Below are positions 37,216-59,064 of a DNA stretch of 64,000 bases, piece by piece. Positions within the stretch are counted from its first letter, which is position 1. Every line of letters begins with the position of its first letter. The DNA is taken from assembly GCA_022823945.1 (NCBI GenBank), contig JAJEBK010000009.1, positions 124,001-188,000 on the forward strand. The letters run 5' to 3'. This DNA is from Anaerolineae bacterium (lineage in GTDB: Bacteria > Chloroflexota > Anaerolineae > Aggregatilineales > Phototrophicaceae). The notes beneath the pieces were generated by a model. The model saw nothing but the letters and a program-made list of their open reading frames with translations, made no database searches and was not told the origin of the DNA. A program made the translations under genes and the position numbers.

Positions 37216-39693
37216 TCAGGCGCGCGTATCTGTGTCGATCTCCGCCATGAGTTGCAGCGCTTCGTCTTTCATTTGTGGGGTCAGCAGAAATTCACGACTG
37301 AAATAGGCTGATTCTGGAAAGCGGTAATTCCAGGCGCGGTAGAAATCGGCGCGTTGCTCATCGCGGCTGAGGTTGCAATCGAAGCGCACCAGGTAACTAT
37401 CCGCTAGCGGTCCCGCATCGTCGTGATGGATGTGCGACAAGCCCCAGGTGATGCCGCGTCCGTCCTGGTTGTCGGTGAAGGCATCGGGCACATAGGGTCC
37501 CGCGGCAACTGGCGGCACAGACACTTTGCCGGCCACTTGAAAGTTCAAGCCGTCGCTCGCGTATTGGACTGTGTTCTTCTCGGGACCTTCGTGGCTGGTG
37601 ATGGCGACAATGCCTTCGCGAAAAGGATAGAGGAAGGTCTCGTGGCCGCTGTTGGTGAGCGGATTCAAAGGCGACTTGACGAAAGGACCCTGCGGGTCAT
37701 CGGCTCTGGCGACCCCCCAGCCGATGCCCAGATCGTGTCGATAAGTCCGCCCATATTGCACCCCTTTGTAATAGAGCCAAATCTGCCCGCGGTAGAGCAG
37801 TACAAAGGGGTCATGCAATTTGTGCGAGTCCCATTCGCCGAAGCTGCCGATAGCGTCGGCATCATCTTCAGCGCCAGAAAACTCGCCAGCTCGACCAGGC
37901 TGCAGGACAGGCTGGTCCAGCTTCGTCCAGGGACCCTGAGGCGCATCTGCCCATGCCATGCCGATACGGTGCCGCGTCCGCTGCGCCCATACGCCTTGTA
38001 TCACCTGATAGTAGAGATAGAATTTGCCGCCGTGCATCAGGATATCGGGGGTGAATACCGAGCGGTCGTCAAAGCTGCCGGGCGCGCCACGCATCACAGC
38101 TGGCCCACGTTCCCGCCAATGGAAGCCATCTATCGATTCGGCGTACCAGATATCCGCCATGTCCCAAGCCCAGGCTGGGCGCGTTTCGCTGGCTTGCTGG
38201 ATTCCGCGCCAGGTCTCTGCAGTTTTGCGGCGCGTATACCAGACATAATACTTGTCGCCAACTCGAATGACTTTGGACGGATCGCGCCGCGTGACGCCGG
38301 CTTCCTTGCCTAGTCCGCTGAGTGGCGAATACTTGAATGCCGAGAAGAATTCGCTGCCTCGGTCTTTGAATACGCCATAGGTCTTGTACACCCGTTGAGA
38401 AGCCCGGCTCAGTGGAGTTGGCGGCGGCTCCTCTGGAGGTTTCTGCGGCTCGCTGGCAAAGCGCAGTGGCTGTTTGTTCCGCTCGTTCAGCGCCATATCC
38501 GGCGAGAAATAAACGGCTTCGGGGAAGCGGATATTTGTGCCGCGAAAGCCAGGTCGCTCGAGCCCGCGGCGCAAGTTGCAATCAAAGCGGATGATATATG
38601 AGTTGCCGCTCTTCATCTCTTCGGTGGCAATATGCGCGAGTCCCCAGGCGATGCCGCTGCCATCACGCGTATGCTCATACGAATCTGGCGCAAAGGGACC
38701 CCCGGCTGGCGGCGGCAGCGTAACATAAGCGACCACTTCAAAGTTCAGCCCGTCAGCCGCGTATTGGATGGTGTCTTTCTCGGGACCATCGTGCCCGCAA
38801 ATAGCCAGCACGCCTTCGCCATAAGGAAACAGACAGGTTTCGTGCCCGCTGTTGGTGACAGGATTCAGCGGTGATTTGACAAAAGGACCTTCCGGCTTGT
38901 CGGCGATGGCGACTCCCCAGCCTATACCGCGCGAATAGCGGGTCGTCCAGCCCATGGGCTGCCCCTTGTAATAGAGCCAATAGCTGCCATCCCGCGCCAA
39001 AATGAAGGGATCGTGCACCTTGTGGCTGTCCCAGTCGCCATAGCGGATTACTTCGTCCGTGTCGTCCTCGCCCAGCCATTCTCCAGCGGCACCCGGTCGC
39101 AGCACAGGCGTTTCGGCGCGCTGCCAGGGACCATGCGGCGAGCTGGCAAAAGACAGGCCGATGCTGTTGCGCGTTCGCGTACAATAAGGGTAATCGACAG
39201 CCTGGTAATAGAGATAAAAGCCGTCCGCCGTCATCAGGACATCGGGCGTGAAAACCGAGCGCCCATCGTAGGCATCTTTCGGTCCGCGCCTGATGGCCAC
39301 ACCGCGCTCTTGCCATCTGAATCCGTCTGTAGATGTGGCGTACCAGATCTCCGCCAGATCCCAATCAAAGACCGGCGTATCCCAAGTCTGCTGCTGGTGA
39401 GGCGGCTTGTTGCGGTGGTCGCGATCATTTGCGGTTTGACGGCGCGTGTACCAGACGAAATAGGTGCCGTTGATGCGCAGCACCGAGGTCGGGTCGCGCC
39501 GTGTGATGCCGGCTTCCTTGCCGATCCCCGCAAGGCGGCTGTATTTGAAGGTCGTGTAGAATTCGCTGGTGGAATCTTGATAGCGCCCCCACTTGTCATA
39601 CAGACGTTGCGTTGCGGCGCTAAGCTGGCGGTCGTTCGGCTTGACAGCGCTTGGCTCGCCGGGCAGGCGTGGCTTGCGCTCTGGCGTGGTCAT
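37216..39693 (-). CDS. tandem two-domain GH117-like glycoside hydrolase
   Basis: Domain A ~39693-38450 and domain B ~38430-37216 share RRDP..V...YYVWYTRR, D-IWYA-S-DGF-W-ERG, RSVFTPD-L, HDPF, WLYYKG, KSPLNP.TNSGHET, GPEK.T.QYA.DGLNF. Confidence 0.78.
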   Translation of the reverse strand: MTTPERKPRLPGEPSAVKPNDRQLSAATQRLYDKWGRYQDSTSEFYTTFKYSRLAGIGKEAGITRRDPTSVLRINGTYFVWYTRRQTANDRDHRNKPPHQQQTWDTPVFDWDLAEIWYATSTDGFRWQERGVAIRRGPKDAYDGRSVFTPDVLMTADGFYLYYQAVDYPYCTRTRNSIGLSFASSPHGPWQRAETPVLRPGAAGEWLGEDDTDEVIRYGDWDSHKVHDPFILARDGSYWLYYKGQPMGWTTRYSRGIGWGVAIADKPEGPFVKSPLNPVTNSGHETCLFPYGEGVLAICGHDGPEKDTIQYAADGLNFEVVAYVTLPPPAGGPFAPDSYEHTRDGSGIAWGLAHIATEEMKSGNSYIIRFDCNLRRGLERPGFRGTNIRFPEAVYFSPDMALNERNKQPLRFASEPQKPPEEPPPTPLSRASQRVYKTYGVFKDRGSEFFSAFKYSPLSGLGKEAGVTRRDPSKVIRVGDKYYVWYTRRKTAETWRGIQQASETRPAWAWDMADIWYAESIDGFHWRERGPAVMRGAPGSFDDRSVFTPDILMHGGKFYLYYQVIQGVWAQRTRHRIGMAWADAPQGPWTKLDQPVLQPGRAGEFSGAEDDADAIGSFGEWDSHKLHDPFVLLYRGQIWLYYKGVQYGRTYRHDLGIGWGVARADDPQGPFVKSPLNPLTNSGHETFLYPFREGIVAITSHEGPEKNTVQYASDGLNFQVAGKVSVPPVAAGPYVPDAFTDNQDGRGITWGLSHIHHDDAGPLADSYLVRFDCNLSRDEQRADFYRAWNYRFPESAYFSREFLLTPQMKDEALQLMAEIDTDTRA

Positions 39694-41273
39694 CGTCTGT
39701 TGTCCTCGCGGATCATGTGCGCCGCTTTTTCGCCGATCATGATGCAGGGCGCATTGGTGTTGGCGTTGATGATGCGCGGCATAATCGAAGCGTCAGCCAC
39801 GCGCAGCCCTTCCAACCCATGCACGCGCAGCCGTTCGTCCACCACCGCCAACCGATCATCGCCCATCTTGCAGGTGCAGGCTGGATGATAAATCGTGGTG
39901 GCGAATTCGCGGATGAAATGAATGAGTTCCGCGTCCGCTGTGACCTGCGCGCCGGGCAAAAATTCATCGCCGCGAACCGCATCAAATGCGCTTGCCTGGG
40001 CGATCTGTCGCGCAAGTTTGACCCCCGTCAGCAGAATGCGAACATCGTCATCGTGGCTCAGGCAGGCGAAGTCGATCAATGGTGCCGCGCAGGGATCTGC
40101 CGATGCCAACTCGAGCTTGCCGGCGCTCTTTGTGCCGACCAAGCCAGCCAGAATCGTGAAGCCATGCCCGTCAGGTGTCGCGAAGCCGTGGCGTATGAAC
40201 CAGTCGGGACCAAAGTGATATTGCAACTCGGGCGCGGGCGAACGCGGGTCGAGCCGCACGAATCCGCCCGCCTCGCCCAGGTTTGATGTCAGCAAGCCCA
40301 TGCGCTCTTGTTCATAAAGCCGTTGCTGCTCCGGCGCGTTCTTCCCGACCAGGCTGATTGACGCATGGCAATGATAGGCGACCGGCACCTGCATATGATC
40401 TGTCAAGCCCTGCCCAACGCCCGGCAGGTCCGCTACCACGGGGATGCCGTGTCTTGCCAACTGCGCAGCCGCCCCAATGCCCGAAATCAACAGCAGTTGT
40501 GGCGAGTTGATCGCGCCGCCACAGACGATAACTTCCTTTCTCGCCTGTGCTGTCTTGCGCTCACCCTCGTGCCAAAGCTCGACTCCCTGGCAGCGTCTGC
40601 CCTCAAAACACAAGCGCGTGACGCGGGCATAGGGCAAAGCGGTGAAATTCGGTCGCTGCAAGGCTGTTTGCAGGTAACCGACGGCACTGCTGTGTCGCTG
40701 TCCGCGCTTCTGCGTAACCTGGTAGAGCCCAAAGCCCTCTTGTTCGCCAGCATTAAAATCCTCGCGCGGCGCATATCCCAGTTCCAGCGCGCCAGCCACA
40801 AATGCGCGGCTCAACGGATTTGGATCTCGCAGGTCCGCTACATTGATCGGCCCGCCGATGCCGTGATGCCGCGATGCGCCGCGTTCCTGATGCTGCATTT
40901 TTTTGAACCAGGGCAGCACATCCCGGTATGCCCAGCCACTGTTGCCCGCCTCCGCCCAGCCATCATAATCGGATGGATGTCCGCGCTGATAGACCATGGC
41001 ATTCATGGAACTGGTGCCGCCATATACTTTGCCGCGCGGCACATATTCTCGCCGTCCGTTCAGCCCCGGTTGGGGCACAGTTTCATAATCCCAATCGAAC
41101 TCGCTGTGAAAGAGGTCGGAAAAACGCGCCGGCACATGGATAGCCGGATCGCTGTCGGGTCCGCCCGCTTCCAGCAGCAGCACAGCCGCATGCGGGTCTT
41201 CGCTCAAGCGCGCCGCGACAGCTGCCCCGGCCGAGCCCGCGCCGATGATGATGTAGTCTGCCTCGTGCATCAC
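39690..41273 (-). CDS. GMC family oxidoreductase (FAD-dependent, choline dehydrogenase-like)
   Basis: ADYIIIGAGSAGAAVAARLSED, PRGKVYGGTSSMNAMVYQRGHPSDYDGW, IYHPACTCKMG, RVADASIMPRIINANTNAPCIMIGEKAA. Confidence 0.94.
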   Translation of the reverse strand: MMHEADYIIIGAGSAGAAVAARLSEDPHAAVLLLEAGGPDSDPAIHVPARFSDLFHSEFDWDYETVPQPGLNGRREYVPRGKVYGGTSSMNAMVYQRGHPSDYDGWAEAGNSGWAYRDVLPWFKKMQHQERGASRHHGIGGPINVADLRDPNPLSRAFVAGALELGYAPREDFNAGEQEGFGLYQVTQKRGQRHSSAVGYLQTALQRPNFTALPYARVTRLCFEGRRCQGVELWHEGERKTAQARKEVIVCGGAINSPQLLLISGIGAAAQLARHGIPVVADLPGVGQGLTDHMQVPVAYHCHASISLVGKNAPEQQRLYEQERMGLLTSNLGEAGGFVRLDPRSPAPELQYHFGPDWFIRHGFATPDGHGFTILAGLVGTKSAGKLELASADPCAAPLIDFACLSHDDDVRILLTGVKLARQIAQASAFDAVRGDEFLPGAQVTADAELIHFIREFATTIYHPACTCKMGDDRLAVVDERLRVHGLEGLRVADASIMPRIINANTNAPCIMIGEKAAHMIREDNRR

Positions 41274-41314
41274 CTTGTTCTCTTCCTACTTTGAGCGATT
41301 AGTTGACCTGGACT

Positions 41315-41336
41315 TGTCAATTGTCTACAATTGACA
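41315..41336. promoter_or_regulatory. 22-bp perfect palindrome, predicted GntR/FCD operator (site 1)
   Basis: TGTCAATTGT-CT-ACAATTGACA between divergent GMC oxidoreductase and GH117-like genes. Confidence 0.75.
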
Positions 41337-41410
41337 GCATAGGTGTCAAGGTATGCAAATCTCATATGCGGCTATTTTCGCTTGTCGAATGCAGGGAAAA
41401 GGGAGACACA

Positions 41411-42646
41411 ATGAACGAAGACAGCAAAAAACCTCGCGCTTTCCCTGGCATGCTGCCACAGACCAAACCCACCGACCGCCCTTTGAGCGCGGCTACCCAG
41501 CGCGTTTATGACATGTGGACGCCCAAGCAAGACCCTGGCAACCCCTTCTATACCAACTTCATGTATTCGCGCGTCACGGGCATCGGCAAAGACGAATCGG
41601 AAATGTCGGTTTCGCGGCGCGACCCGTCCAAGGTGCTCAAGATCGGCGATACCTATTATGTTTGGTACACGCGGCGCATCACCGAGCATGTGCCAGTGGG
41701 CATGCGCCACCACGACCAGGCGAATGAAGAGATCCCCGCTGTCGACTGGGACCTGGCCGATATCTGCTATGCCACCTCGAAAGATGGTTTCGACTGGGTG
41801 GAGCAGGGCATCGCCGTGCCGCGCGCGCCCAAAGGCACTTATGGCGATCGCTCGCTTTCCACGCCGGATATCCTGGTCTGGAAAGGGCGATATTATCTGT
41901 ATTACCAGTGCTTCACGACCAAGTGGCGGGCGCATGACTGCGTTGGCGTCAGCATGGCGCATGCCGATTCGCCGGATGGTCCCTGGGCGCGCATGGATGT
42001 GCCGATTGTCCCGCAAGGCGCGCCCGGCGAATGGGACAGCTGCGCCATCCACGACCCGTATCCGCTGGTCTACAAGGGACAGGTTTGGCTCTATTACAAA
42101 GGCTCGCCATTTGAGAAAGTCTCAGGCGGTTTGCTGCGCGCGCAGGGTGTCGCCATCGCCGACCAGCCAGAGGGTCCCTTCATCAAGTCCGAACTGAACC
42201 CGGTCACCAATTCCGGGCATGAAACCATGTATTGGAATTACAAAGGCGGCATTGCTACATTGCTGATCCTGGATGGGCCGGAAAAAGACACCATTCAATT
42301 TGCGCCAGACGGACTGAACTTCCAGCCCATGGCGCATGTGCAGTTGTCGCCGGTGGCGCCTGGTCCCTTCTGCCCCGATGCCTTCGCGGATAACGGCGAT
42401 GGGCGCGGCATCACCTGGGGACTCAGCCACATCACGCCGCCTGGCGATGGTTCGCGCAGGGGCTGTCATATCATCCGCTTCGATTGTGACTTGTCGCGCG
42501 ACTGTCATCGCCCAGAATTCAAGCGCAGCAACCTGCACTTCGGCGAAGAGACTTTCTTTCAGCGGGTGGCGCGTCTGCCCGCAGACTGGCGCGAGCGCAT
42601 CCTGGCGGAACAAGCCGCCTTCGATAAGCCGACCATCGGCGTCTAA
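41411..42646 (+). CDS. GH117-like glycoside hydrolase
   Basis: SRRDPSKVLKIGDTYYVWYTRR, DRSLSTPDILVWKGRYYLYYQ, KSELNPVTNSGHET, GPEKDTIQFAPDGLNF; start MNEDSKKP at 41411. Confidence 0.78.
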   Translation: MNEDSKKPRAFPGMLPQTKPTDRPLSAATQRVYDMWTPKQDPGNPFYTNFMYSRVTGIGKDESEMSVSRRDPSKVLKIGDTYYVWYTRRITEHVPVGMRHHDQANEEIPAVDWDLADICYATSKDGFDWVEQGIAVPRAPKGTYGDRSLSTPDILVWKGRYYLYYQCFTTKWRAHDCVGVSMAHADSPDGPWARMDVPIVPQGAPGEWDSCAIHDPYPLVYKGQVWLYYKGSPFEKVSGGLLRAQGVAIADQPEGPFIKSELNPVTNSGHETMYWNYKGGIATLLILDGPEKDTIQFAPDGLNFQPMAHVQLSPVAPGPFCPDAFADNGDGRGITWGLSHITPPGDGSRRGCHIIRFDCDLSRDCHRPEFKRSNLHFGEETFFQRVARLPADWRERILAEQAAFDKPTIGV

Positions 42647-42652
42647 ATTCGC

Positions 42653-43426
42653 TCAGCGCCCCATCCAGCCGCCGTCGACAACCAGAATCTCGCCATTGAC
42701 GAAATCGGAGGCGGCCGATGCCAGGAAGACGACGGGTCCCTTAAAATCGTCTATCGTGCCCCAGCGCCCGGCCGGGATGCGCTCTGTGATGGCGCGGTAC
42801 CGTTCGGGATCATTTTGCAGCGCTTCGGTTACATCGGTGCGCACATAACCGGGCGCTATGGCATTCACCTGTACGCCGCCGCTCGCCCATTCGTTCGCCA
42901 GCGCCTTCGTCAATTGCCCGATGCCGCCCTTGCTGGCTGCATAGCCCGGCACCGTGATGCCGCCTTGAAAAGTCAGCAACGAGGCCGTGAAGATGATCTT
43001 GCCGCTGCCTCGCTCCAGCATGCGCGCGCCGAGCTCGCGACTGAGCACGAACTGGGCGCTCAGGTTGATTTCGATGATGCGATCCCAATAGTCATCGCTG
43101 TGCGATGCGGCCGGCTCGCGCAGGACAGCCCCCGCGTTGTTGACCAAAATGTCGATGACGGGGTGTTCACTCGTCACCTGCCCGATAAATTCGTGCAGTT
43201 TGTCGCGTTTTGAGAAGTCGCAGCGATAGCCAGCGAAGCGCCGCCCCTGCGCCAGGACAGCCCGCTCAATATCGCTGCCGCTGGCTTCCAGGCTGGCGCT
43301 GACCGCGATGATATCCGCGCCAGATTCTGCCAGTGCGCTGGCCATGGCGAATCCAATGCCGCGGCGCGCGCCGGTCACCAGCGCTGTCTTGCCATCCAGC
43401 CGAAATGTATCGAGTACGTTCATCAC
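42653..43426 (-). CDS. SDR family oxidoreductase (gluconate/KduD-like)
   Basis: LVTGARRGIGFAMASALAESGADI, VNNAGAVLREPA, GYAASKGGIGQLTKALANEWA, NAIAPGYVRTD. Confidence 0.92.
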   Translation of the reverse strand: MMNVLDTFRLDGKTALVTGARRGIGFAMASALAESGADIIAVSASLEASGSDIERAVLAQGRRFAGYRCDFSKRDKLHEFIGQVTSEHPVIDILVNNAGAVLREPAASHSDDYWDRIIEINLSAQFVLSRELGARMLERGSGKIIFTASLLTFQGGITVPGYAASKGGIGQLTKALANEWASGGVQVNAIAPGYVRTDVTEALQNDPERYRAITERIPAGRWGTIDDFKGPVVFLASAASDFVNGEILVVDGGWMGR

Positions 43427-44457
43427 ACCTCCAACAGAATCTTCATGACGCGTCCGCCTTTTTCCATGTCCTGAAAGACGGACTGCAGCGCATTCAAGGG
43501 GCGGATATCGGTAATCAGCTCGTCCAGCGGCAGCGCGCCAGAAGCAGCCAGGTCGATGGCTGTGGCGAAGTCTTGACTTTCATAAACGCGCACCCCTTGC
43601 AGACGCAGCTCGCGCCAAAAGAAGCGAAACAGGTCCAGCTTTGGCGGCTGGGCGAAGATCGCGACCACCACTGCCAATCCGCGCGTGCGCAGCAACTCGG
43701 TCATCACATCTGCGCCAGCCTGCGAGCCCGATACTTCAAAGACGATATCGGCGCCAGCGCCACCGGTGCGCCGCAGCACCGCCGCCAGCAGATCAGCCTC
43801 GCGTGGATTTATCGCCTCGAACCCAAGCTGCCTCGCCAGGTCGACGCGGTAGGGATTGATTTCGGAGACGATCACATCTGCGCCAGCCTGCTGCGCCACC
43901 AGCGCCACCAGCATGCCGATGGGACCGCCGCCCAGCACGACCACCTGATCGCCCGCCTGCACATTTGCCAGCCGCACATCATGACAGGCGACTGCCAGCG
44001 GCTCGATCAGTGCGCCATGTTGCAGCGAAAGCGAGGCAGGTACGCGGTGCAATGTATTGGCTGGTACCGTCCAGTAGCTCTGGAATGCGCCTGGCGTGTC
44101 GATGCCCAGGAAGTCCAGATTGTGGCAGATGTGGCTGTGACCGGCTGCGCAAGCGGGGCAGTTGTAGCAGGCTGCCAGCGGCATGACGACCACCCGGTCG
44201 CCTGGCGCGAACTCGTCGACGCCTGCGCCCAGCGTGTGCACTGTGCCCGACATTTCGTGCCCCATCACCAGCGGCATCTGCACGCGCGCATCCATCGCGC
44301 CGTGAAAAATGTGCAGGTCTGTGCCGCAAATGCCACAGTGTGAAACGCGCAACTGCACCTCGTCTGCGGCAGGCGGACGCGGCTCGCATTCGCCCTGCCG
44401 GATGCGGCGCTCACCTTCATAAAAAGCTGCGATTGCCATGTCTCGTCCTGTTTCCAT
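43423..44457 (-). CDS. zinc-dependent medium-chain alcohol/sugar dehydrogenase
   Basis: HCGICGTDLHIFHG, MGHEMSGTVHTLGAGVDEFAPGDRVVV, VVVLGGGPIGMLVALVAQQAGA. Confidence 0.92.
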   Translation of the reverse strand: METGRDMAIAAFYEGERRIRQGECEPRPPAADEVQLRVSHCGICGTDLHIFHGAMDARVQMPLVMGHEMSGTVHTLGAGVDEFAPGDRVVVMPLAACYNCPACAAGHSHICHNLDFLGIDTPGAFQSYWTVPANTLHRVPASLSLQHGALIEPLAVACHDVRLANVQAGDQVVVLGGGPIGMLVALVAQQAGADVIVSEINPYRVDLARQLGFEAINPREADLLAAVLRRTGGAGADIVFEVSGSQAGADVMTELLRTRGLAVVVAIFAQPPKLDLFRFFWRELRLQGVRVYESQDFATAIDLAASGALPLDELITDIRPLNALQSVFQDMEKGGRVMKILLEV

Positions 44458-44497
44458 TCGGGCGAGTCATCGCCACGCCCCTGGATATAGATAGCTG

Positions 44498-45106
44498 TTA
44501 CTGGATATTGGCGTAAAGCGCGTTGATTGCGCCTGGCTTGTCGCCGCTGCGGATAGCATCCAGGATGCGCTTGTGCTCGCGGTAGCTTTCCATGATATCG
44601 CCATGACGCGTATATTGCATCATCATGCGCATGGCGATCGGCTGCCACAGCGTGAAGATGTCTTTGTCATCGTGGCTCTGGATAATCGCCTGGTGGAAGC
44701 GCAGGTCGCAGTCGGTCAGCGCATCGACATCGTTGTTTTGACACGCTGCGTGGATATCCGCCAGGATATCTTCCCAACGCCCGATATCGATCTCGGTGAT
44801 GCGATCGAAGATGCTGTCCAGCACAAAAGTCTCGATAGTTCGGCGCAACTGCACGACTAGCGGCCGCACCTCCACGCTGGGATTTTGGGCGACACGCGCG
44901 CCTTTGTTGGGCTCGAGCACCAGCAAACCCTGTTGGGTAAGCTGGCGGAATGCCTCGCGCACGGGTCCGCGGCTGACCCCGAATCGCTGCGAAAGGTCAG
45001 CCTCGCGCAGGGGATCGCCGGGTTTCAGTTTGTTGGAAAGCACTTCACGGCGCAGGCGCGCGGCGATCTGCTCGGGCAGCGTACGATAGATTTCGATTGT
45101 CGTCAT
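44498..45106 (-). CDS. GntR family transcriptional regulator, FCD subfamily
   Basis: N-terminal wHTH (LRREVLSNKLKPGDPLREADLSQRFGVSRGPVREAFRQLTQQGLLVLEPNKGARVA), FCD-like C-terminus (DLRFHQAIIQSHDD). Confidence 0.93.
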   Translation of the reverse strand: MTTIEIYRTLPEQIAARLRREVLSNKLKPGDPLREADLSQRFGVSRGPVREAFRQLTQQGLLVLEPNKGARVAQNPSVEVRPLVVQLRRTIETFVLDSIFDRITEIDIGRWEDILADIHAACQNNDVDALTDCDLRFHQAIIQSHDDKDIFTLWQPIAMRMMMQYTRHGDIMESYREHKRILDAIRSGDKPGAINALYANIQ

Positions 45107-45313: not shown

Positions 45314-46459
45314 TCATTGTTTGTAGGGGTCGGCGGCATCTCGCAAGCCATCGCCCAGGAAGTTGAATGCCAGCACGGTCACGATGACAAAGAGTCCCGG
45401 GATCAAGAGCCAGGGACTTTGGCTGAGGCTGCGGATATTTTGCGCGTCTTGCAGCAGCACACCCCAGCTGACGGCGGGTGGGCGAATGCCGATCTGCAAG
45501 AAACTCAGCGATGTCTCGGCAAGGATCATGCCCGGCACCGCCAGGCTGAGCACAACGATCAAGAAGCTGGCGAACGATGGCAGCAGGTGCTTCAAGATGA
45601 TATCCAGGTCGCCCATGTTGGATATGCGCGCCGCCATGACGAAATCAGCCTCGCGCAGTTCCAGCAATTTGCCGCGCACCGCTCTTGCCAGCGTCGTCCA
45701 GCCGACGGTGGCCAGCACCAACGTGATGCCAAAATACACTTGGGTCGAACTCCACTCGGCGGGCAGAGCAGCCGCCAGTGCAATAATCAGCGGGATTGAC
45801 GGGATCGATATCAAAAATTCGATCAGGCGCTGTATCACCAGATCGACCACGCCGCCGAAGTAGCCAGAGATGCCGCCGAACAGACAGCCAAGCACAAAAC
45901 TGATGATGACGCCCAGGAAACCGATCGACAGCGAGATTCGCGCCGCGTGCATGGTGCGGGAGTATAAATCGCGCCCCAGGTCATCTGTGCCAAATGGGAA
46001 GAAGACGCCCGGCGCTTCCACGCCCATCAGATGGATGTTGCTTTCTAGCAAGCCGAGAATCTTGTAGGGCTCGCCCTGCACGAAGAAGTGGATCGGATAC
46101 TTTTTGTCGCGCACTTCGGAATAATTGCGCTGCAAAGTGTCCATATCCAGGGTTTGCTTCATCTGATAAATGAAGGGTTGCAGGCTGAAAATGCCCGCGT
46201 CATCGACAAAGTAAATGGTATGCGGCGGAGACTTCGCAAACTGGACATGGCGCTTTTGGTAGTCGTTGATGGCATAAAATTCGGAGAAGAGCGCCATCGA
46301 ATAGAGAACGATGATGACAGCCAGCGACCCGATCGCCAGGCGATGCCGCCGAAATTTGCGCCAGATCAGCTGCCACTGCGATGCGAGATAATAGCTCTCG
46401 TCATAAGCGGTGGCTTCCGCTTCGGCTGTTTTGCGCCTGATGCCGATTCGCCGCAACAT
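45314..46459 (-). CDS. Opp/Dpp-type ABC transporter permease (OppC-like)
   Basis: FGTDDLGRDLYSRTMHAARISLSIGF, RGKLLELREADFVMAARISNMGDLDIILKHLLPS, GDGLRDAADPYKQ. Confidence 0.93.
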   Translation of the reverse strand: MLRRIGIRRKTAEAEATAYDESYYLASQWQLIWRKFRRHRLAIGSLAVIIVLYSMALFSEFYAINDYQKRHVQFAKSPPHTIYFVDDAGIFSLQPFIYQMKQTLDMDTLQRNYSEVRDKKYPIHFFVQGEPYKILGLLESNIHLMGVEAPGVFFPFGTDDLGRDLYSRTMHAARISLSIGFLGVIISFVLGCLFGGISGYFGGVVDLVIQRLIEFLISIPSIPLIIALAAALPAEWSSTQVYFGITLVLATVGWTTLARAVRGKLLELREADFVMAARISNMGDLDIILKHLLPSFASFLIVVLSLAVPGMILAETSLSFLQIGIRPPAVSWGVLLQDAQNIRSLSQSPWLLIPGLFVIVTVLAFNFLGDGLRDAADPYKQ

Positions 46460-46471
46460 CGTAAGCTCCGC

Positions 46472-47467
46472 CTAATCTGCCGCGCGTTCCATGCGGATGC
46501 GCGGGTCGACAACGACCAGCAGAATATCGGATACCGTCGTGCCGATGACGGTAAGAATCGTGACGAACATCAGCAAGCTCGCTGTCAAGAAAGTGTCTTG
46601 TGTCAGCAGGGAGCGCAGCAGCATCGGTCCCGCCGTGGGCAAGCCCAGCACATAGGCGGTGATGGTGCCGCCCGATATCAAGCTGGGGAAGAGCCAGGCG
46701 AGGCTGCTGACGATTGGGTTGAGCGCCACACGCACTGGATATTTGAAGAGCAATCTAACTTCGCCCACGCCTTTGCTGCGCGCGGTGATGACATACTGCT
46801 TGTTCAGCTCGTCCAGCAGCGTGCCGCGCATGACGCGAATCAAGCCGGCCGTGCCGCTCGTGCCGACCACGATGATGGGAATGGGTAGGTGTTTGGCCAG
46901 GTCGACCAGCTTCGCCAAATCCCAGGGCGCGCCTTGAAACTCCTGAGAAAACAAACCGGTCAAATTCAGACCAAATTGCGACCACGCCACATAAAGCATG
47001 ATCAGCGCCAGCATAAAGTTGGGAATCGACAAGCCGATGAAGCCGATGAAAGAAACGATGTAATCGCTGATGGAGTATTGCCGCGCTGCGGAATAAATGC
47101 CGATGGGGATGGCCACCGCATAAGTGAAGATGGCGGTCAGAATCGCAATCGTGAAAGTCAAAGCAAGCCGCTCGCCGATGATATCGCGCACCGGCTGCTG
47201 CCAATCAAACGAGAATCCGAACTCACCCTGCAGCACTTGCCGAAACCAGCTGAAGTAGCGGGCATAAATGGGCAGGTCCAACCCATACTGGCGGCGCAGG
47301 TTCGTCACCTGCTCGTCCGAAAGCTGCTCTCCCGCCTGTTCCAGACGGCTGATGTAGCTGGAAAGATAGTCGCCCGGCGGCAGCTGAATCACGATGAAAG
47401 TTACGATGGTGACCAGCCACAGCAGGAAGACCATATAGACCAGGCGCTGCAGCACATAATTTCTCAT
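46472..47467 (-). CDS. Opp/Dpp-type ABC transporter permease (OppB-like)
   Basis: MRNYVLQRLVYMVFLLWLVTIVTFIVIQLPPGD, RVMRGTLLDELNKQYVITARSKGV, VDPRIRME. Confidence 0.93.
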   Translation of the reverse strand: MRNYVLQRLVYMVFLLWLVTIVTFIVIQLPPGDYLSSYISRLEQAGEQLSDEQVTNLRRQYGLDLPIYARYFSWFRQVLQGEFGFSFDWQQPVRDIIGERLALTFTIAILTAIFTYAVAIPIGIYSAARQYSISDYIVSFIGFIGLSIPNFMLALIMLYVAWSQFGLNLTGLFSQEFQGAPWDLAKLVDLAKHLPIPIIVVGTSGTAGLIRVMRGTLLDELNKQYVITARSKGVGEVRLLFKYPVRVALNPIVSSLAWLFPSLISGGTITAYVLGLPTAGPMLLRSLLTQDTFLTASLLMFVTILTVIGTTVSDILLVVVDPRIRMERAAD

Positions 47468-47544
47468 GCGCTTGCGCCCGCCGCCGCTGCCGACATCAAA
47501 TAACCTAAGCTGGTCATAGGCGCATTGTAGTCGCTGAATTGCAG

Positions 47545-47570
47545 ATTGTCAACAATGTACACTTGACAAT
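47545..47570. promoter_or_regulatory. predicted GntR/FCD operator (site 2)
   Basis: ATTGTCAA-N10-TTGACAAT; same TGTCAA-N10-TTGACA spacing as site 1; between divergent oppB-like and enolase-superfamily genes. Confidence 0.65.
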
Positions 47571-47656: not shown

Positions 47657-48778
47657 ATGTCGGGAGCGCCCTCAATGAACGAGCCCTTGCGCATCGCCTG
47701 CGTCGAAACCCGACATTTCTTGCTGCCGCTCAGCCATCCCATGACCGATGCCACGCATGGCGTGCACACCGAGTTTGAGGTGGTGGCTGTGCGCCTGGAA
47801 AGCGATTGTGGCACCAGCGGCATCGGCTATACCTACACAATTGGGCGTGGCGGCGCGGCGATCCGCTCTTTGATCCAGCGCGATGTACAAGCGCTGCTGC
47901 TGGGCGCTGACGCCTGGCGCATAGAGCAGATCTGGGAGCGCATGTGGCGCTGCCTGCATTATGTGGGGCGGGGCGGGCTGGCAGCCTTCGCCATGTCGGC
48001 GGTCGATATCGCCTTGTGGGATCTGCTGGCGCGCAGCCAGAGGCAGCCGCTTTGGAAGCTGCTGGGCGGATATTCTGGCGAGGCGCGCGCCTATGCCGGC
48101 GGCATTGATTTGCAGTTGGGACCAGACGAACTGGTCGAGCAGACGCGCTGCAACCTTGCTGACGGCTTCCGCGCCATCAAAATCAAGGTGGGCCGCGACA
48201 AACTGTCCGAAGATATCGCCAGGCTGCGGGCGGTGCGCGATTGTCTGGGACCCGATATTCCGCTGATGGTCGATGCCAACATGCGCTGGACAACCGAACA
48301 GGCGATCCGCGCGGCGCGCAGTTTCCACGACTATGATGTCTTCTGGCTGGAAGAGCCGACTATCCCCGACGATTACGCCGGCTTGAGCCGAATCGCGCGG
48401 GAAGGCGGTTTGCCCATCGCCGCGGGCGAAAACCTGCGCACGATCTATGAATTCCGCCACACACTCGAGGCTGGCATCGCTTTTGCCGAACCCGATGTAT
48501 CCAACATAGGCGGCATCACCAACTGGATGCGCGTGGCGCGGCTGGCCTATGCGCACAACTTGCCAGTTACTTCGCATGGCGTGCACGAGCTGCACTTGCA
48601 CTTGTTGGCGGCTATCCCCAATGCTTCATACTTGGAAGTGCACAGCTTCGGCTTGGAGCGCTTCATTTTGAATCCGCCCAAACTGCATGATGGCGTGATG
48701 CGCGCCGGCGCAGAGCCAGGCCACGGCGTGCAATTTGAGTGGGACAAACTGCGTGAATACGAAGTGAAAGGAGACTGA
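47657..48778 (+). CDS. mandelate racemase/muconate lactonizing (enolase superfamily) enzyme
   Basis: FRAIKIKVGRDKLSEDIARLRAVRDCLGPDIPLMVDANMRWT, FWLEEPTIPDDYAGLSRIARE, PIAAGENL, DVSNIGGITNWMRVARLA. Start at 47657 or MNEPLRIA at 47675. Confidence 0.93.
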   Translation: MSGAPSMNEPLRIACVETRHFLLPLSHPMTDATHGVHTEFEVVAVRLESDCGTSGIGYTYTIGRGGAAIRSLIQRDVQALLLGADAWRIEQIWERMWRCLHYVGRGGLAAFAMSAVDIALWDLLARSQRQPLWKLLGGYSGEARAYAGGIDLQLGPDELVEQTRCNLADGFRAIKIKVGRDKLSEDIARLRAVRDCLGPDIPLMVDANMRWTTEQAIRAARSFHDYDVFWLEEPTIPDDYAGLSRIAREGGLPIAAGENLRTIYEFRHTLEAGIAFAEPDVSNIGGITNWMRVARLAYAHNLPVTSHGVHELHLHLLAAIPNASYLEVHSFGLERFILNPPKLHDGVMRAGAEPGHGVQFEWDKLREYEVKGD

Positions 48779-48839
48779 ATGAAGCTTGCTGACCTGCATA
48801 TTACCTGATGTCGTTCACAGCTTTGAGAGGAGCTTACGC

Positions 48840-50849
48840 ATGAAACGAAGTCAATTTGTACTCATGACTGTCTTGGCATTGGTCTTGCTGCCGACTGTCG
48901 TTTTCGGGCAAGCCATGCACGAGGGCGAACTGGTCTATCCATTCCAATATGCCGACCTCGCTGCCTACTCCGCCGCAACTGGCAACAGCATCGAAAGCTG
49001 GGGCGAGGCGCCTATGCTGGCGGAGAAAGTCGCCGCTGGCGAGCTGCCACCGGTAGAAGAGCGCCTGCCCGCGCAACCTGTCGTCGTCCAGCCGCTGGAG
49101 CAAATCGGCGAATATGGCGGCGAGCTGAAGGGTCCGTCGGCGCTGCCCACTTGCTGTGGCTGGGATGTGCTGGAGATGCGTTTGCAGAAGCTGCTGACCA
49201 TCGATACCGACTTGATCAGCATCATCCCCAATGTCGCGCAATCCTTTGATGTTTCTGACGACCAGACGACCTTCACTTTCACACTTCGCGAGGGGCACAG
49301 ATGGTCGGACGGCGAAGCATTCACCACCGATGACTTCCGCTTCTGGTTCGAGGATGTGCTTGGCAACCCCGAGCTGACTCCCGCGCCGGGCGGTCCCTGG
49401 GTGCTGGATGGCGAACTGCCAGCGATGGAGATCATTGACGAGCGGACGATCCGTTTCTCGTATCCAGAAGCCCGTCCCACGCTCCTCATCGCCATCGGCA
49501 GCGAGATCAATCATCGCGGCTATCGGCCCGCTCACTACTTTGAGCAGTATCACATCGACTACAACCCTGACGCGAGCGCGCTGGCGGACGAACTGGGCTT
49601 TGAAAGCTGGGTGCAGATGTTCAACGCCAAGATGAACACCTACAACAACACCTGGAATCTGGGCTCGGAGACCGATCCCTATTCGCCAACCCTGAACACC
49701 TTTGTGTTTGTGAGCGAAGACGCCTTTGGCAACAAGCTCTACGAACGCAACCCCTACTTCTTCAAGGTCGACACGGCTGGCAATCAGCTGCCATATACCG
49801 ATACCTTGCGCCGCCTGCTGGTAGAAGATGTGCAGGTGCAGGATTTGAAAGGCATCGCTGGCGAATACACGCACTTTGGCTGGGGCTCGCTGGGCAGCTA
49901 TCCGACCTATCGCGAGAATGAAGAAGCGGGCGGCTATCGCACAGCGCTGGCGGAATACAGCCGCGCCAACGAGTATTCGCTGATGTTCAACTTCACGACC
50001 GAAAACCTCCCCCTGCGCGAGATCTTCTGGGATGTGCGCTTCCGCCAAGCCATGTCTGTCGCCATCAACCGCGACGAGATCAATGAGTTGGTCTACTTCG
50101 GCTTGGCCAATCCCTCACAGAGTGCGCCGGTGCCCTCCTCGGCTTTCTATGAGCCTTGGATGACCACCAACTACGCGCAGTACGATCCCGACTTGGCCAA
50201 TCAGTTGCTGGACGAGATGGGGCTGGACCAGCGCGATGCCGATGGCTTCCGCATGCGCCCGGATGGCGAGACGCTCTTCATCAACTTCCAGGTCTATGTG
50301 CCAGAAGATTCCTGGCGTCAGATCGGCGAGTTGATCACCTCCTATTGGAACGAAGTCGGCGTCAAGACTCAGTACAAGATCATTGGCGATGGGCTCTTCC
50401 GCGAGCTGCGCAACAGCAATTCGCTGGATATCTCGGCTTGGGCTGCCGACATCCTGGATATCGGCGCGATGGCCAGCGGCCTGAGCAATATGCGCGTAAG
50501 CTGGGGCAACCGCGCTTCGGGCATCCCCTGGCGGGATTGGATCCTCAACGACGGCGAAATCGGCGAAGAGCCACCGCAGGAGATCATCGACCTGTATGAA
50601 ATGGGCGAGACTTATCTGTCCCAACGCTATGGTTCCGATGAGTGGCTGGAGGCTGGCAAAGCCTTCTACAACACTTCCTTCGGCGGTCTCTATCAGATCG
50701 GCACCATCCAGCGTCCGCCGCAGCCGCTGCTCTTCAAGACGAACTTGAAGAACACGCCGCCCAATGACACGGTCGGTCAGTGGGCGTGGAGCTACCGGCA
50801 GTGGGTCATGTTCATGCCCGAACAATGGTACTTCGAAGGCGGCAGCTAG
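48840..50849 (+). CDS. family 5 ABC transporter substrate-binding protein
   Basis: Signal peptide MKRSQFVLMTVLALVLLPTVVFGQA; FTFTLREGHRWSDGEAFTTDDFRFWFED; MSVAINRDEINELVYFGLA. Confidence 0.92.
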   Translation: MKRSQFVLMTVLALVLLPTVVFGQAMHEGELVYPFQYADLAAYSAATGNSIESWGEAPMLAEKVAAGELPPVEERLPAQPVVVQPLEQIGEYGGELKGPSALPTCCGWDVLEMRLQKLLTIDTDLISIIPNVAQSFDVSDDQTTFTFTLREGHRWSDGEAFTTDDFRFWFEDVLGNPELTPAPGGPWVLDGELPAMEIIDERTIRFSYPEARPTLLIAIGSEINHRGYRPAHYFEQYHIDYNPDASALADELGFESWVQMFNAKMNTYNNTWNLGSETDPYSPTLNTFVFVSEDAFGNKLYERNPYFFKVDTAGNQLPYTDTLRRLLVEDVQVQDLKGIAGEYTHFGWGSLGSYPTYRENEEAGGYRTALAEYSRANEYSLMFNFTTENLPLREIFWDVRFRQAMSVAINRDEINELVYFGLANPSQSAPVPSSAFYEPWMTTNYAQYDPDLANQLLDEMGLDQRDADGFRMRPDGETLFINFQVYVPEDSWRQIGELITSYWNEVGVKTQYKIIGDGLFRELRNSNSLDISAWAADILDIGAMASGLSNMRVSWGNRASGIPWRDWILNDGEIGEEPPQEIIDLYEMGETYLSQRYGSDEWLEAGKAFYNTSFGGLYQIGTIQRPPQPLLFKTNLKNTPPNDTVGQWAWSYRQWVMFMPEQWYFEGGS

Positions 50850-50921: not shown

Positions 50922-52007
50922 ATGACTATCAGCGCCGCCATGCGCCGGTTTCAGCGACCGGACAGAGTAAATCCCTGGTTTGCCAAGTTCAAATATAGCC
51001 CGGTGACTGGGCTGGGCTACGAGAAAGGCATCGTGCGCCGCGACCCCAGCGCCATCTTGCGCATTGATGGCGAATACTTCATCTGGTATACCCGCGCCGC
51101 TCACCCATGCCCGCCAGTCGGCTTCGACCGCATGACGGATACGTTGCCGGCGACGCCCTGGGACTTGGCAGATGTCTGGTATGCCACCTCGGCCGATGGG
51201 CATCATTGGAACGAAATCGGTCCCGCTGTCGAGCGCGGCGGTCCTGGCGCATACGACGAGCGTGGCGTCTTCACGGCCGATGTCGTGCAAATCGACGGGC
51301 GCTATTACATGGTCTACCAGGTGGCACCCAATCCCAACTATCGCAGCACGCCGGAATCTATCGCCATCGCCTGGGCAGATTCGCCGCATGGTCCCTGGAC
51401 GAAGAGCGCAGCGCCCATCCTCGAGCCGCATCCATCGGGCCAGGTCGATGAGCGCAAAGATCGCGAGGATTGCATTGAGCCGGGCGAGTGGGATAGCCTG
51501 CAAGTGCATGATCCTGCCTTGATGCTTCGCGAAGGCAAATACTGGCTCTACTACAAAGGCGAGGGCATCGGCATCCACCACATGGAGAGCAAGTGGGGCG
51601 TCGCTATCGCCGACGATCCTCTGGGTCCATACACCCGCTCGCCATTCAATCCCGTCACGAATAGCGGGCACGAGGTGGTCGTCTGGCAATACGCTGGCGG
51701 CGTGGCCGGCTTGGTCAATCGCTGCGGTCCGGAGAAAAATACAATTCAGTTCGCAGCCGACGGCATCAACTTCGAGATCATGTCGCAGCTGGTTGTGCCG
51801 CCGCAAGCCGCTGGACCTTTTCGCGTCGATGAGGCGGAGAATACCGAGCCGCTCTCGCGATTCCGCTGGGGCTTGAGCCATGTCATCCCGCGCAGCTCCC
51901 ACCTTGTCATGCAGGGACGGGATCCCTTGGGCTTGGCGGCTGTCGAAGAGCCTTGGGATTTCCTCGTTCGCTGGGACCTTGATTTCGAGCGCCGCGAGTA
52001 TATCTGA
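50922..52007 (+). CDS. GH117-like glycoside hydrolase
   Basis: GLGYEKGIVRRDPSAILRIDGEYFIWYTR, VHDPALMLREGKYWLYYKGEG, SPFNPVTNSGHEVV, GPEKNTIQFAADGINF. Confidence 0.78.
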   Translation: MTISAAMRRFQRPDRVNPWFAKFKYSPVTGLGYEKGIVRRDPSAILRIDGEYFIWYTRAAHPCPPVGFDRMTDTLPATPWDLADVWYATSADGHHWNEIGPAVERGGPGAYDERGVFTADVVQIDGRYYMVYQVAPNPNYRSTPESIAIAWADSPHGPWTKSAAPILEPHPSGQVDERKDREDCIEPGEWDSLQVHDPALMLREGKYWLYYKGEGIGIHHMESKWGVAIADDPLGPYTRSPFNPVTNSGHEVVVWQYAGGVAGLVNRCGPEKNTIQFAADGINFEIMSQLVVPPQAAGPFRVDEAENTEPLSRFRWGLSHVIPRSSHLVMQGRDPLGLAAVEEPWDFLVRWDLDFERREYI

Positions 52008-52029
52008 CCGCCGCGAGAGGAGAAACCGC

Positions 52030-53121
52030 ATGCACAGCGCTGCCATGGCACGCTACCAGCCCGACCGCCACAATCCCTGGTTCACGCGCTTTCGCTACCA
52101 ACTGGTCGAAGGGCTGGGTTATGAGCGCGGCATCGTTCGGCGCGACCCCAGCTGCATCATCCAGGTCGATGGCACATACTTCGTTTGGTATACGCGCGGC
52201 GCGCATCCCTGCGTCCCGGTTGGGCACGATCATGCGACCGAGACAGCGCCCGCTGTCGCCTGGGATTTGTGCGATGTCTGGTATGCCACTTCCCGCGATG
52301 GACACAGCTGGCAAGAACAGGGCCCAGCCGTAAAGCGCGGTCCCGCTGGCAGTTATGACGAACGCAGCGTCTTCACGCCCGATGTGCTGGCGCATGACGG
52401 ACGGTATTACCTCGTTTATCAGGTTACGAGGGCACCTTCTTATCGCAGCACACCCGAGTCGATCGCCATCGCCCACGCCGATTCGCCGCATGGTCCCTGG
52501 ACCAAGTCTCCCGCGCCGGTTGTCGAGCCAGATCCATCGGGAGAAGTCGATGAACGCGCGCATCCCGAACAGGCGACTGTGCCGGGCAGCTTCGACAGCC
52601 TGCGCGTGCACGACCCGGCGTTGCTCTTCCGCGATGGGCGCTATTGGCTCTATTTCAAGGGCGAAGGCATCGGTCACAGCAATATGGAAAGCAAGTGGGG
52701 CGTGGCCATCGCCGATGATGCGCTGGGTCCATATACCAAATCGCCATTGAACCCCATCACCAACAGCGGTCACGAGGTCATGGTATGGGAATACGCTGGC
52801 GGCGTCGGCGCGCTGTTGACTCGCTGCGGTCCCGAGAAAAATACCATCCAGTTCGCCGCGGACGGCCTCAACTTCCAGCCCATGTCCACCATCATCGCGC
52901 CTCCCCAAGCCACCGGCGCACTGCGCGTGCCAGCCAGCGACAACAACGAGCCTTTGTCCGGCTTGAGCTGGGGGCTCAGCCATGTGACGACTTACAGCGC
53001 CCACCTGTCATGGCAGGGACGCGATCCACTGGGCCTGAGCGAAATCGACGAGCCTTGGGATTTCATCATCCGCTGGGAACGCGAAGGGCTGCCAAAGGGC
53101 GCAGACGGGCACGATGCCTAG
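52030..53121 (+). CDS. GH117-like glycoside hydrolase (tandem paralog of the preceding gene)
   Basis: GLGYERGIVRRDPSCIIQVDGTYFVWYTR, RSVFTPDVLAHDGRYYLVYQ, SPLNPITNSGHEVM, GPEKNTIQFAADGLNF; ATG at 52030 (ORF track extends into the previous gene). Confidence 0.78.
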   Translation: MHSAAMARYQPDRHNPWFTRFRYQLVEGLGYERGIVRRDPSCIIQVDGTYFVWYTRGAHPCVPVGHDHATETAPAVAWDLCDVWYATSRDGHSWQEQGPAVKRGPAGSYDERSVFTPDVLAHDGRYYLVYQVTRAPSYRSTPESIAIAHADSPHGPWTKSPAPVVEPDPSGEVDERAHPEQATVPGSFDSLRVHDPALLFRDGRYWLYFKGEGIGHSNMESKWGVAIADDALGPYTKSPLNPITNSGHEVMVWEYAGGVGALLTRCGPEKNTIQFAADGLNFQPMSTIIAPPQATGALRVPASDNNEPLSGLSWGLSHVTTYSAHLSWQGRDPLGLSEIDEPWDFIIRWEREGLPKGADGHDA

Positions 53122-54757
53122 ACCGCCCAATGTCGTCTTCGTCATCACCGACGACCAGGGCTACGGCGATATCGGCTGCCACGGTAATCCCCATCTGAAA
53201 ACGCCCCACCTCGACCGGCTGGCTGACGAAAGCGCCCAGTTGGACGATCATCACCACGACCCGCTGTGCTCGCCTTCTCGCGCAGCGCTGCTGACGGGCC
53301 AATATGCGGCGCGCAACGGCGTGTGGCATGTCATCCAGGGGCGGCATCTGTTGGACCCAGGCGCAGTCTGCATGACGGAGATCTTCGCCCAAAACGGATA
53401 TCACACGGGCATGTTTGGCAAGTGGCATCTGGGCGACAATTATCCGTTTGCTCCACAATATCGTGGCTTTGACGAAACGCTTTGCCATCGTGGCGGCGGC
53501 GTTGGCGAACTGCCAGATTATTGGGGAAACAGCTATATTGACGATGTCTATTTTCGGGATGGGTCGCCTTTGCAGTGCGCTGGCTATTGCACAGATGTCT
53601 TCTTTGATGCCGCGCTGGATTTTATACAACGCCACAGCAACCAGCCCTTCTTTGTCTACCTGGCCACCAATGCTATGCACGCGCCTTTCATCGTGCCAGA
53701 GCGATATGCCGCGCCATACCGGACGATGGATATGCCGGCGGATCGCGCCAATTTCTATGGCATGATCGCCAATTTCGACGAAAACATGGGCAGGCTGCTG
53801 GATCATCTGCGCGCGCTGGGGCTGGACAGCAATACAATCGTCCTCTTCACCGCCGATCATGGCACAGCCGCTGGCTGGGACGAAGCAGCGAATTGCGGCT
53901 TCAACGCGGCCATGCGCGGGGCGAAAGGCTCGGTCTATGAAGGCGGGCATCGCGTCAACTGCTTCTTGCGCTGGAAAGGGACGATTCCCGCAGGTCGGAA
54001 AATGTCCGGGCTGACGGCGCATGTTGATGTGCTGCCGACTCTGCTCGACCTGTGCGATTTGGAAAGCGACGCACCTTTCGATGGCATCAGCCTGGCAAAG
54101 CAGCTGCTCGGCGCGGAAAGCGATTTGCCGCAGCGGTCCCTGGTCGTCCAACTGCAGCCGGATACGCCGCGGAAGTGGCATCATTGCGTTGTGCTGAATG
54201 GCAAGTGGCGGCTTGTCGGTGGCAGCGAATTGTATAACATCGAAAGCGATCCTGCGCAGCAGCGCGATGTGGCGGCGGCGAATCCACAGGTTCTCGCGGC
54301 GCTGCGAAATGATTACGAAAGCTGGTGGCAAGACCATAGAGACGCATTTGCTCGCACGGTAGCGATACCGGTCGGGACAAAGTATGAAAATACTGTGCTG
54401 CTGTCGGCGCGCGATTGGCATCCGACCGTGGGCCAAGTCCCCTGGCTGCAAGCCTGGATCGACGACCCCGCTTATGACTCCAATGGCTGGTGGCTGGTCG
54501 ATATTGCGCAGATAGGGCAGTATCGCATTGAACTGCGCACACATCCACGCGAGGCGAACCGTGCCATGAACTCCTCAACAGCGCGACTGCAAGTGGGTGA
54601 AACAACGGTGGAAAGGGCGGTGTTGGCTGGCGACATCGCGGCGGTCTTCAGGCTGGATTTGCCCAGGGGCGAAGTCAAATTGCAGACCTGGCTGGACGAC
54701 GAATCCGGCTCCCGGCGGCGCGGCGCGTATTATGTTTATGTGACGAAAGTCGTGTAG
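53114..54757 (+). CDS. sulfatase (formylglycine-dependent, Cys-type)
   Basis: NVVFVITDDQGYGDIGCHGNPHLKTPHLDRLA, CSPSRAALLTGQYAARNGVW, GMFGKWHLGDNYPFAPQYRGFDE, TADHG. Confidence 0.95.
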   Translation: MPRPPNVVFVITDDQGYGDIGCHGNPHLKTPHLDRLADESAQLDDHHHDPLCSPSRAALLTGQYAARNGVWHVIQGRHLLDPGAVCMTEIFAQNGYHTGMFGKWHLGDNYPFAPQYRGFDETLCHRGGGVGELPDYWGNSYIDDVYFRDGSPLQCAGYCTDVFFDAALDFIQRHSNQPFFVYLATNAMHAPFIVPERYAAPYRTMDMPADRANFYGMIANFDENMGRLLDHLRALGLDSNTIVLFTADHGTAAGWDEAANCGFNAAMRGAKGSVYEGGHRVNCFLRWKGTIPAGRKMSGLTAHVDVLPTLLDLCDLESDAPFDGISLAKQLLGAESDLPQRSLVVQLQPDTPRKWHHCVVLNGKWRLVGGSELYNIESDPAQQRDVAAANPQVLAALRNDYESWWQDHRDAFARTVAIPVGTKYENTVLLSARDWHPTVGQVPWLQAWIDDPAYDSNGWWLVDIAQIGQYRIELRTHPREANRAMNSSTARLQVGETTVERAVLAGDIAAVFRLDLPRGEVKLQTWLDDESGSRRRGAYYVYVTKVV

Positions 54758-54773
54758 TGGCGGAGCGAAAACA

Positions 54774-56567: not shown

Positions 56568-56882
56568 TCAATCGTCGAAACGACTCGACCAGTCCTGTCG
56601 CACCTGCTCAAGCTCGGCCAGCAGGCTCTCGCGCGTCGACTCCTCGTCGTAGAAGGGGCTATCTTCATAGAACCGGATCATTTCTTCCAGTCGCTTGCGA
56701 GGACCCTTGCGTTTTCCAAGCCAGTGCGGCGGCGGCTCGCCGGTGTCCAGGATGTGGTCGGCGTCCTGGAAGTGCCGCGTGATGGCATGACCTGCCGCGC
56801 GATTGCTCGTCCAATAGATGACGAAGGCCACGCAGCCCGCGCCGACGAGAGACGCCAGAATGAACAACGTGAGAAAACCCAT
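56568..56882 (-). CDS. small membrane protein, translationally coupled to the ABC ATPase
   Basis: [27 protein letters not shown]... single TM then acidic/basic tail; ATG overlaps the TAA of the upstream gene (TAATGGG). Confidence 0.65.
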   Translation of the reverse strand: MGFLTLFILASLVGAGCVAFVIYWTSNRAAGHAITRHFQDADHILDTGEPPPHWLGKRKGPRKRLEEMIRFYEDSPFYDEESTRESLLAELEQVRQDWSSRFDD

Positions 56883-57934
56883 TATCGACCCTCCTCGACG
56901 CCGCGCAGCTCCAGCTCGTCCGCGAAGTGACAAGCAGCGAAATGTTGCGGCGCGACTTCGCTCCATTGCGGCTCGTCGGTCATGCAGATGTCTTGCGCAT
57001 AGCGGCAGCGTGGATGGAAGTAGCAACCGCTGGGCGGATTGGCTGGATTGGCGACCTCGCCGGGCAAAATGATGCGATCCATTTTGATTTCGGGATCGGT
57101 GGTGGGCACAGCTGACAGCAACGCTTCGGTATAAGGATGTTTGGGCTGGGCGAAAAGCGACTCGGTATCCGCCATTTCCACCAGTTTGCCGACATACATC
57201 ACGCCGACGCGGTCGGATATATGTTCAACCACAGACAAATCGTGCGCGATGAACAAGAAGGTCAGGTCAAATTCTTCTTGCAAATCCTCCAACAAGTTGA
57301 GGATCTGCGCTTGAATCGACACATCCAGCGCCGAGACTGCCTCATCGCAGACGATCAGCCGCGGGTTGGGCGCAAGCGAGCGCGCGATGCCGATACGTTG
57401 ACGTTGCCCGCCCGAAAAAGCGTGCGGATAACGGTTGAGGTGCTGAATGTCCAAGCCAACCACTTCCATCAGTTCGCGCACACGATTTTGGATATCGCGC
57501 GAATCGGCGAGCAGCTGGTTGTTGCGGATCGGCTCGGCGATGATCTCGAGCACCGACATGCGCGGATCCAGCGACGAATAGGGGTCCTGGAAGATCATGT
57601 GAAAATGTTTGCGAATATCGCGCAATTCCTGCTTGTCCAGCTCGGCGACATCGACAGTTTCGCCTTCTGGCAGACGAAAGAAGACCTGTCCATCTGTTGG
57701 CTCGATAGCGCGCACAACACAACGGCCCAGCGTCGTCTTGCCACTGCCCGATTCGCCGACCAGGCCGAAGGTCTCGCCCTCGCGGATGATAAAGCTGACG
57801 CCGTCAACTGCCTTGACATGCCCTTTAACAGTGCGAAAGAAGCCTTTTTCGATCGGGAAGTGCTTCTTCAGGTCGCGCACTTCCAACAAAACATCGCCAG
57901 GTTGTCGCGCGGGTGGGGCAGGAGTCTCAGGCAT
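56882..57934 (-). CDS. Opp/Dpp-type ABC transporter ATP-binding protein (OppF-like)
   Basis: [51 protein letters not shown]; start [11 protein letters not shown] at 57934. Confidence 0.94.
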
Positions 57935-58974: not shown

Positions 58975-58998
58975 TTGTCATATTGTAGACAATTTACA
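58975..58998. promoter_or_regulatory. predicted GntR/FCD operator (site 3)
   Basis: TTGTCATATTGTAGACAATTTACA; its 12-bp core ATTGTAGACAAT (58982-58993) is the exact reverse complement of site 1 core ATTGTCTACAAT (41320-41331); just upstream of the oppD-like start. Confidence 0.65.
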
Positions 58999-59064
58999 AA
59001 GTTGCGTCAAGCAAAGAAAATTTAGTCTTTAGTAAAGGGACCGTAGAACACAAAGAGCCTTATT

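Follow-up and report, generated by a model that had tools for sequence, protein, structure and literature searches.

Within the GntR family, FadR-type (FCD) regulators recognize sites that carry TKGT/ACMA boxes, and individual residues bear on the choice of base: an Arg at HTH position 28 favours G at the K position, a Pro at position 40 avoids G there, and an Asn at position 59 tends to A/T (Suvorova et al., PMC4494728). A second described case is the FCD-type GntR protein NanR of Escherichia coli, several dimers of which bind side by side on a (GGTATA)3 operator (PMC8012715). With respect to gene content, catabolic genes of the anhydrogalactose type (cycloisomerase, sulfatases) in the carrageenan regulon of Zobellia (Bacteroidota) answer to a local regulator of their own, the AraC-family cgrA (PMC5698469). 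Our literature search yielded no description of a GntR operator at GH117 or anhydrogalactose loci. The paper on the LacI-type DagR of the Streptomyces agar genes has been retracted and was excluded as a comparison.

We analyzed a stretch of 64,000 nucleotides from a Chloroflexota genome (hereafter the window), in which a palindrome lies between two divergent genes of a GH117-based sugar cluster. Very probably, this palindrome serves as an operator (operator a) in a local regulon governed by the FCD-type GntR protein encoded at 44498-45106, which would act as an inducer-released repressor and control its own gene through a second site, operator b. Like the operators of the FadR subfamily with a 2-nt centre, it is an A/T-rich palindrome with TKGT/ACMA boxes and 2 nt between GT and AC, it sits in the middle of a divergon, and the transcription factor gene lies within a regulated operon. 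Unlike them, it has a longer conserved context and extra half-sites in 7-bp phase, and orthologs of the regulator above 70% identity were found only in this Chloroflexota genus. The locus shares with NanR an FCD-type GntR protein and several short operator repeats in regular phase; the repeats of NanR are direct and 6 bp long, whereas here an inverted core is accompanied by 7-bp-phased copies, and the 32-residue N-terminal extension of NanR is absent, the GntR domain starting at residue 12 of 202 (PMC8012715). By this analogy, NanR offers an earlier example of an FCD operator with phased repeats, and we do not assign the present operator or regulator to the NanR type. Compared with Zobellia, the type of catabolic genes and the presence of a dedicated local regulator are alike, the regulator here being an FCD GntR in Chloroflexota rather than an AraC-family protein (PMC5698469). 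The mechanism would be of a well-known type, an ordinary kind of bacterial switch, with the 7-bp array as a possible variant.

The cluster spans positions 37216-58949. Its first gene (37216..39693, minus strand) encodes a GH117-like protein whose single 825-residue chain contains the catalytic domain twice; given a 4-bp overlap, this gene probably shares an operon with the gene of a choline-dehydrogenase-like GMC oxidoreductase (39690..41273, minus strand). A GH117-like hydrolase of 411 aa is encoded on the opposite side of the palindrome (41411..42646, plus strand); its best PDB match was 4u6d (3.9e-116), and it matched the anhydro-alpha-L-galactosidases 4ak5-4ak7 at about 1e-72, with 4ak5-4ak7, 3r4y and 3p2n together spanning 1e-63 to 1e-72. 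More generally, the GH117-like proteins of the cluster had 4u6d/4u6b as best matches, followed by 4ak5-4ak7, a similarity to characterised anhydro-galactosidases known here from sequence. The minus strand then carries genes for a KduD-like short-chain dehydrogenase (SDR, 42653..43426), a zinc-type alcohol dehydrogenase (ADH, 43423..44457), the 202-aa regulator (44498..45106) and OppC- and OppB-type ABC permeases (45314..47467). On the plus strand follow an enolase-superfamily member with close similarity to 3,6-anhydro-alpha-L-galactonate cycloisomerase (47657..48778; PDB 5xd7, 4.1e-112, and 2ovl, 2.4e-119), a family 5 solute-binding protein (SBP, 48786..50849), two more GH117-like genes (50922..53121), and a segment at 53114..56564 comprising a sulfatase (53114-54757) and a 596-aa protein (54774-56564) that has no Pfam or NCBIfam match and is kept in the clusters of sister species at about 69-89% identity. 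With the OppD/OppF-type ABC ATPases (56882..58949, minus strand), a complete oligopeptide-type ABC importer is encoded in the cluster. The interval 37216-58949 yielded no further regulator gene.

The preliminary description had reported a 22-bp perfect palindrome at the divergent GMC/GH117 promoter. The palindrome is genuine, although its start had been given one base early: it occupies 41315..41336, has no strand of its own, and reads TGTCAATTGTCTACAATTGACA, with 10/10 arm bases paired around a CT centre and outer arms TGTCA and TGACA. Its 12-bp core, ATTGTCTACAAT, lies at 41320-41331. As described, the genes on either side are transcribed away from each other, the GMC gene on the minus strand (39690-41273) and the GH117-like gene on the plus strand (ATG at 41411, preceded by GGGAGA), leaving a gap of 137 bp. 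Symmetry by itself is weak evidence, since first-order Markov shuffles gave ~1.3 inverted repeats per 64 kb with arms of at least 10 and spacers of 0-10; we consequently dropped any significance drawn from symmetry alone. The window holds a second inverted repeat with 10-bp arms, ATGGCTTGATAGCTGATCAAGCCAT at 16595-16619, about the number expected by chance.

The palindrome owes its significance to recurrence, not symmetry. The exact 22-mer occurs only once in the genome, even when 3 mismatches are tolerated, and the core pattern ATTGTNNACAAT has exactly four exact matches in the 3.51-Mb genome, three of which fall in promoter gaps of the same 22-kb cluster, at 41320 (gap a), 47545 (gap b) and 58982 (gap c). 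Operator b, ATTGTCAACAATGTACACTTGACAAT (47545..47570), lies between OppB and the enolase-superfamily gene and consists of a core at 47545-47556 and more half-sites in 7-bp phase; operator c, ATTGTAGACAATTTACAAA (58982..59000), lies upstream of the OppD-OppF ATPase genes. The fourth match (C19:1033, on another contig) was set aside because it is inside a long tagatose-bisphosphate-aldolase-like ORF. About 0.96 cores would be expected per 3.51 Mb and 0.00011 in the three promoter gaps, where three were observed; the Poisson probability was ~2e-13 for the three gaps (408 bp, picked after seeing the sites) and 2e-8 for an 18-kb stretch. A longer pattern, ATTGTNNACAATNNACA, was confined in the window genome to operators a, b and c. 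The possibility raised in the preliminary description, that the motif might be scattered over unrelated genes, is thus not borne out by the exact matches in this genome; cores with one mismatch, at 59 places, are too numerous to inform.

Conservation was followed in 31 sister species with GntR orthologs at 73-97% identity, giving 32 genomes with that of the window. At gap a, the core was exact in 31/32 sequences (window included) and the left TGT was present in all 32, while the full 22-bp symmetry (10/10 pairs) was kept in just 3/32. The core of gap b was exact in 29 of 30 sequences, the remaining one showing 1 mismatch, and that of gap c was exact in the window and in 13 sister species with that end on the contig, with 1 mismatch in L061. 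A fourth operator (d) with an exact core was found in 16 sister species in the MR-SBP gap, which separates the genes of the enolase-family enzyme and the binding protein. This ATTGTCAACAATGGACAATTTACAAT-like site (L054-L078), upstream of the solute-binding-protein gene, is lacking in the window genome and in its nearest relatives. Core columns carried 1.8-2.0 bits and flanking bases mostly ~0.1-0.3 bits. The pattern ATTGTNNACAATNNACA was found in all 32 genomes with a GntR ortholog and was missing from 26 of 29 genomes lacking one, an association between motif and regulator that appears strong, yet is not phylogenetically independent because all sister species belong to one genus. In L052 (G014), the GMC and double GH117 genes are missing beside the GH117-like gene and the regulator is retained; the core there has decayed to ATTGCCTAGAAT (2 mismatches), and operator b is intact. 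Outside the cluster, genomes G015 and G016 contain 26 exact cores, mostly within ORFs, only one of which has a 7-bp-phased neighbour at no more than 1 mismatch.

The operators also coincide with promoter boxes. Across the 18.3 kb from 41000 to 59300, the four best promoter-like hits fell exactly on the three operators, with the core contributing the -10 box in operators a and c and the -35 box in operator b. The predicted promoter of the GH117-like gene (41303..41331, plus strand) combines a -35 TTGACC, a 17-bp spacer and a -10 TACAAT within the core of operator a, a geometry conserved in 29/31 sequences. The best hit of all (11/12) was the predicted promoter of the OppB-OppC-GntR-ADH-SDR operon (47524..47552, minus strand), with its -35 TTGACA within the core of operator b, a 17-bp spacer and a -10 TACAAT; this arrangement recurred in 29 of 30 sequences. 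For OppD-OppF, the predicted promoter (58982..59010, minus strand) has a -35 TTGACG, 17 bp and a -10 TACAAT within the core of operator c, as in 8/8 sequences tested. A possible promoter of the GMC unit (41320..41349, minus strand; -35 TTGACA at 41349-41344, 18 bp, -10 GACAAT within the core) was seen in about 3/31 sequences and is not conserved in relatives. As no clearly conserved promoter was found among the sister sequences at gap a on the minus strand or at gap b on the plus strand, it is less certain that the two units concerned are controlled in this way. The central dinucleotide of the core appears to be fixed by the promoter, as CT for the -10 TACAAT and CA for the -35 TTGACA. The preliminary description had also read TTGAC (41303-41307) and TGTCAA (41344-41349) as flanking half-sites. 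Both are present, but they are out of the 7-bp register with the core, and we rejected them as extra operator half-sites; given the conserved TTGACC-17-TACAAT geometry, TTGACC is better taken as the plus-strand -35 box, and TGTCAA could act as a minus-strand -35 in the window genome only.

Since the core overlaps either a -10 box (a, c) or a -35 box (b) of sigma-70-like promoters, an autoregulated repressor is the best explanation. We infer that the regulator, as a dimeric winged-helix protein, binds the core at the three promoter gaps and excludes RNA polymerase from strong sigma-70-like promoters, which would block five transcription units: from gap a, GMC plus the double GH117 gene leftward and the GH117-like gene rightward; from gap b, OppB-OppC-GntR-ADH-SDR leftward and the genes of the enolase-family enzyme, SBP, GH117s and sulfatase rightward; and from gap c, OppD-OppF. 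Its own operon would be repressed through operator b. A pathway intermediate of the sugar-acid type would then occupy the FCD domain and free the protein from DNA, so that a glycan of the anhydrogalactose type, or a sulfated one, could be imported and broken down. Some FadR-type regulators both activate and repress, and the same protein could activate or exert dual control from the same sites, in keeping with the promoter boxes at gap a (minus) and gap b (plus) that could not be confidently placed; we consider this unlikely, as at a(+), b(-) and c(-) the -10 or -35 box itself lies under the core, where repressors typically sit.

Beside each core, further half-sites follow a 7-bp phase, regularly repeated as in NanR-type operators. 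ACAAT (at most 1 mismatch) was found at +7 in 29/30 sequences of operator b, 8/8 of c and 16/16 of d, and an ACAAT-like half-site at +14 was present in all 30 sequences of operator b; half-sites 14 bp from the core also occur at d. In operator a, an ATTGT-like half-site lies at -7 in 19 of 31 sequences, and TGT occupies the same spot in 32/32. In view of this phase, the 22-bp symmetry of the window genome is the core plus one outer half-site on each side. Such an arrangement would probably leave room for a second dimer next to the first. Whether these features amount to a distinct FCD-operator architecture is more doubtful: we put forward only tentatively that an inverted core and direct half-sites in strict 7-bp phase may stack at least two dimers along the promoter, with a free central dinucleotide tuned to the -10 or -35 box covered.

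Both domains of the regulator, PF00392 (GntR winged HTH, 2.7e-18) and PF07729 (FCD, 4.8e-16), exceeded the Pfam cut-offs. In 16 aligned orthologs, position 28 is A, V or I and not Arg, position 40 is Pro and position 59 is Asn, these positions being assigned with what we take to be the FadR numbering sequence. The specificity residues are consistent with recognition of TTGT, and none would favour TGGT. On the DNA side, TTGT-CT-ACAA is invariant in nearly all orthologous sites, and GT and AC are separated by 2 nt in all exact sites, a spacing of 2 or 3 nt being that of this type. The earlier prediction of an FCD/FadR-type operator for the local GntR protein is therefore well supported by the domains and residues of the protein, by the core shared with the other main promoters of the cluster, including that of the regulator's operon, and by the retention of sites and regulator together in sister species. 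By sequence, the closest solved full-length relative is TM0439 of Thermotoga maritima (PDB 3fms, 3sxy), which has other target genes. Its C-terminal His aligns with N200 (44498-44500), an invariant Asn in 16/16 aligned orthologs; metal binding may differ in the present regulator if this His is, as we presume, the usual FCD metal ligand.

Alternatively, the operators might be real and yet serve a different regulator from another locus, such as a second FCD paralog, with the linked GntR controlling another target. FCD paralogs do share the core: in at least 10 sister genomes, a ATTGTCTACAATCTACA site precedes the gene of a paralog 31-34% identical to the regulator by ~110-170 bp (L185:1959-1970 in G016:C42; elsewhere, e.g., G029:C64:3596, G012:C16:193094 and G021:C62:33602), so possession of the core does not by itself point to a single protein, and cross-talk between the FCD paralogs is possible. 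We nevertheless judge this alternative distinctly improbable, as the paralogs in the window genome are just three, all weak (27.9 to 43 bits and 21.9 bits), none of them adjoins an extended site, and the linked GntR, encoded behind operator b, accompanies cluster and sites in 32 genomes. No ATTGTCTACAATCTACA site of the paralog type was found in the window genome. In L185, the paralog adjoins epimerase-like and Gfo/Idh-like genes.

A chance palindrome, RNA hairpin or terminator with no regulatory role can be practically dismissed: one inverted repeat with 10-bp arms is indeed expected per window, but this one recurs at three promoters and is conserved across species, it lacks a G+C-rich stem or T-run, and it was not among the terminator-like hits.

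The local repressor reading would give a GH117-based sugar cluster of uncultivated marine Chloroflexota (MAG records) a concrete regulon of three operators and five transcription units, and would link an orphan FCD regulator to a proposed operator. If it is correct, the inducer would reveal the glycan used by these bacteria, and the operator/regulator pair could be put to use for sensing sugar acids. Among named genomes, the nearest ones that contain orthologs are Chloroflexi/Anaerolineae MAGs, and several bin names suggest sponge samples as the source of the relatives.
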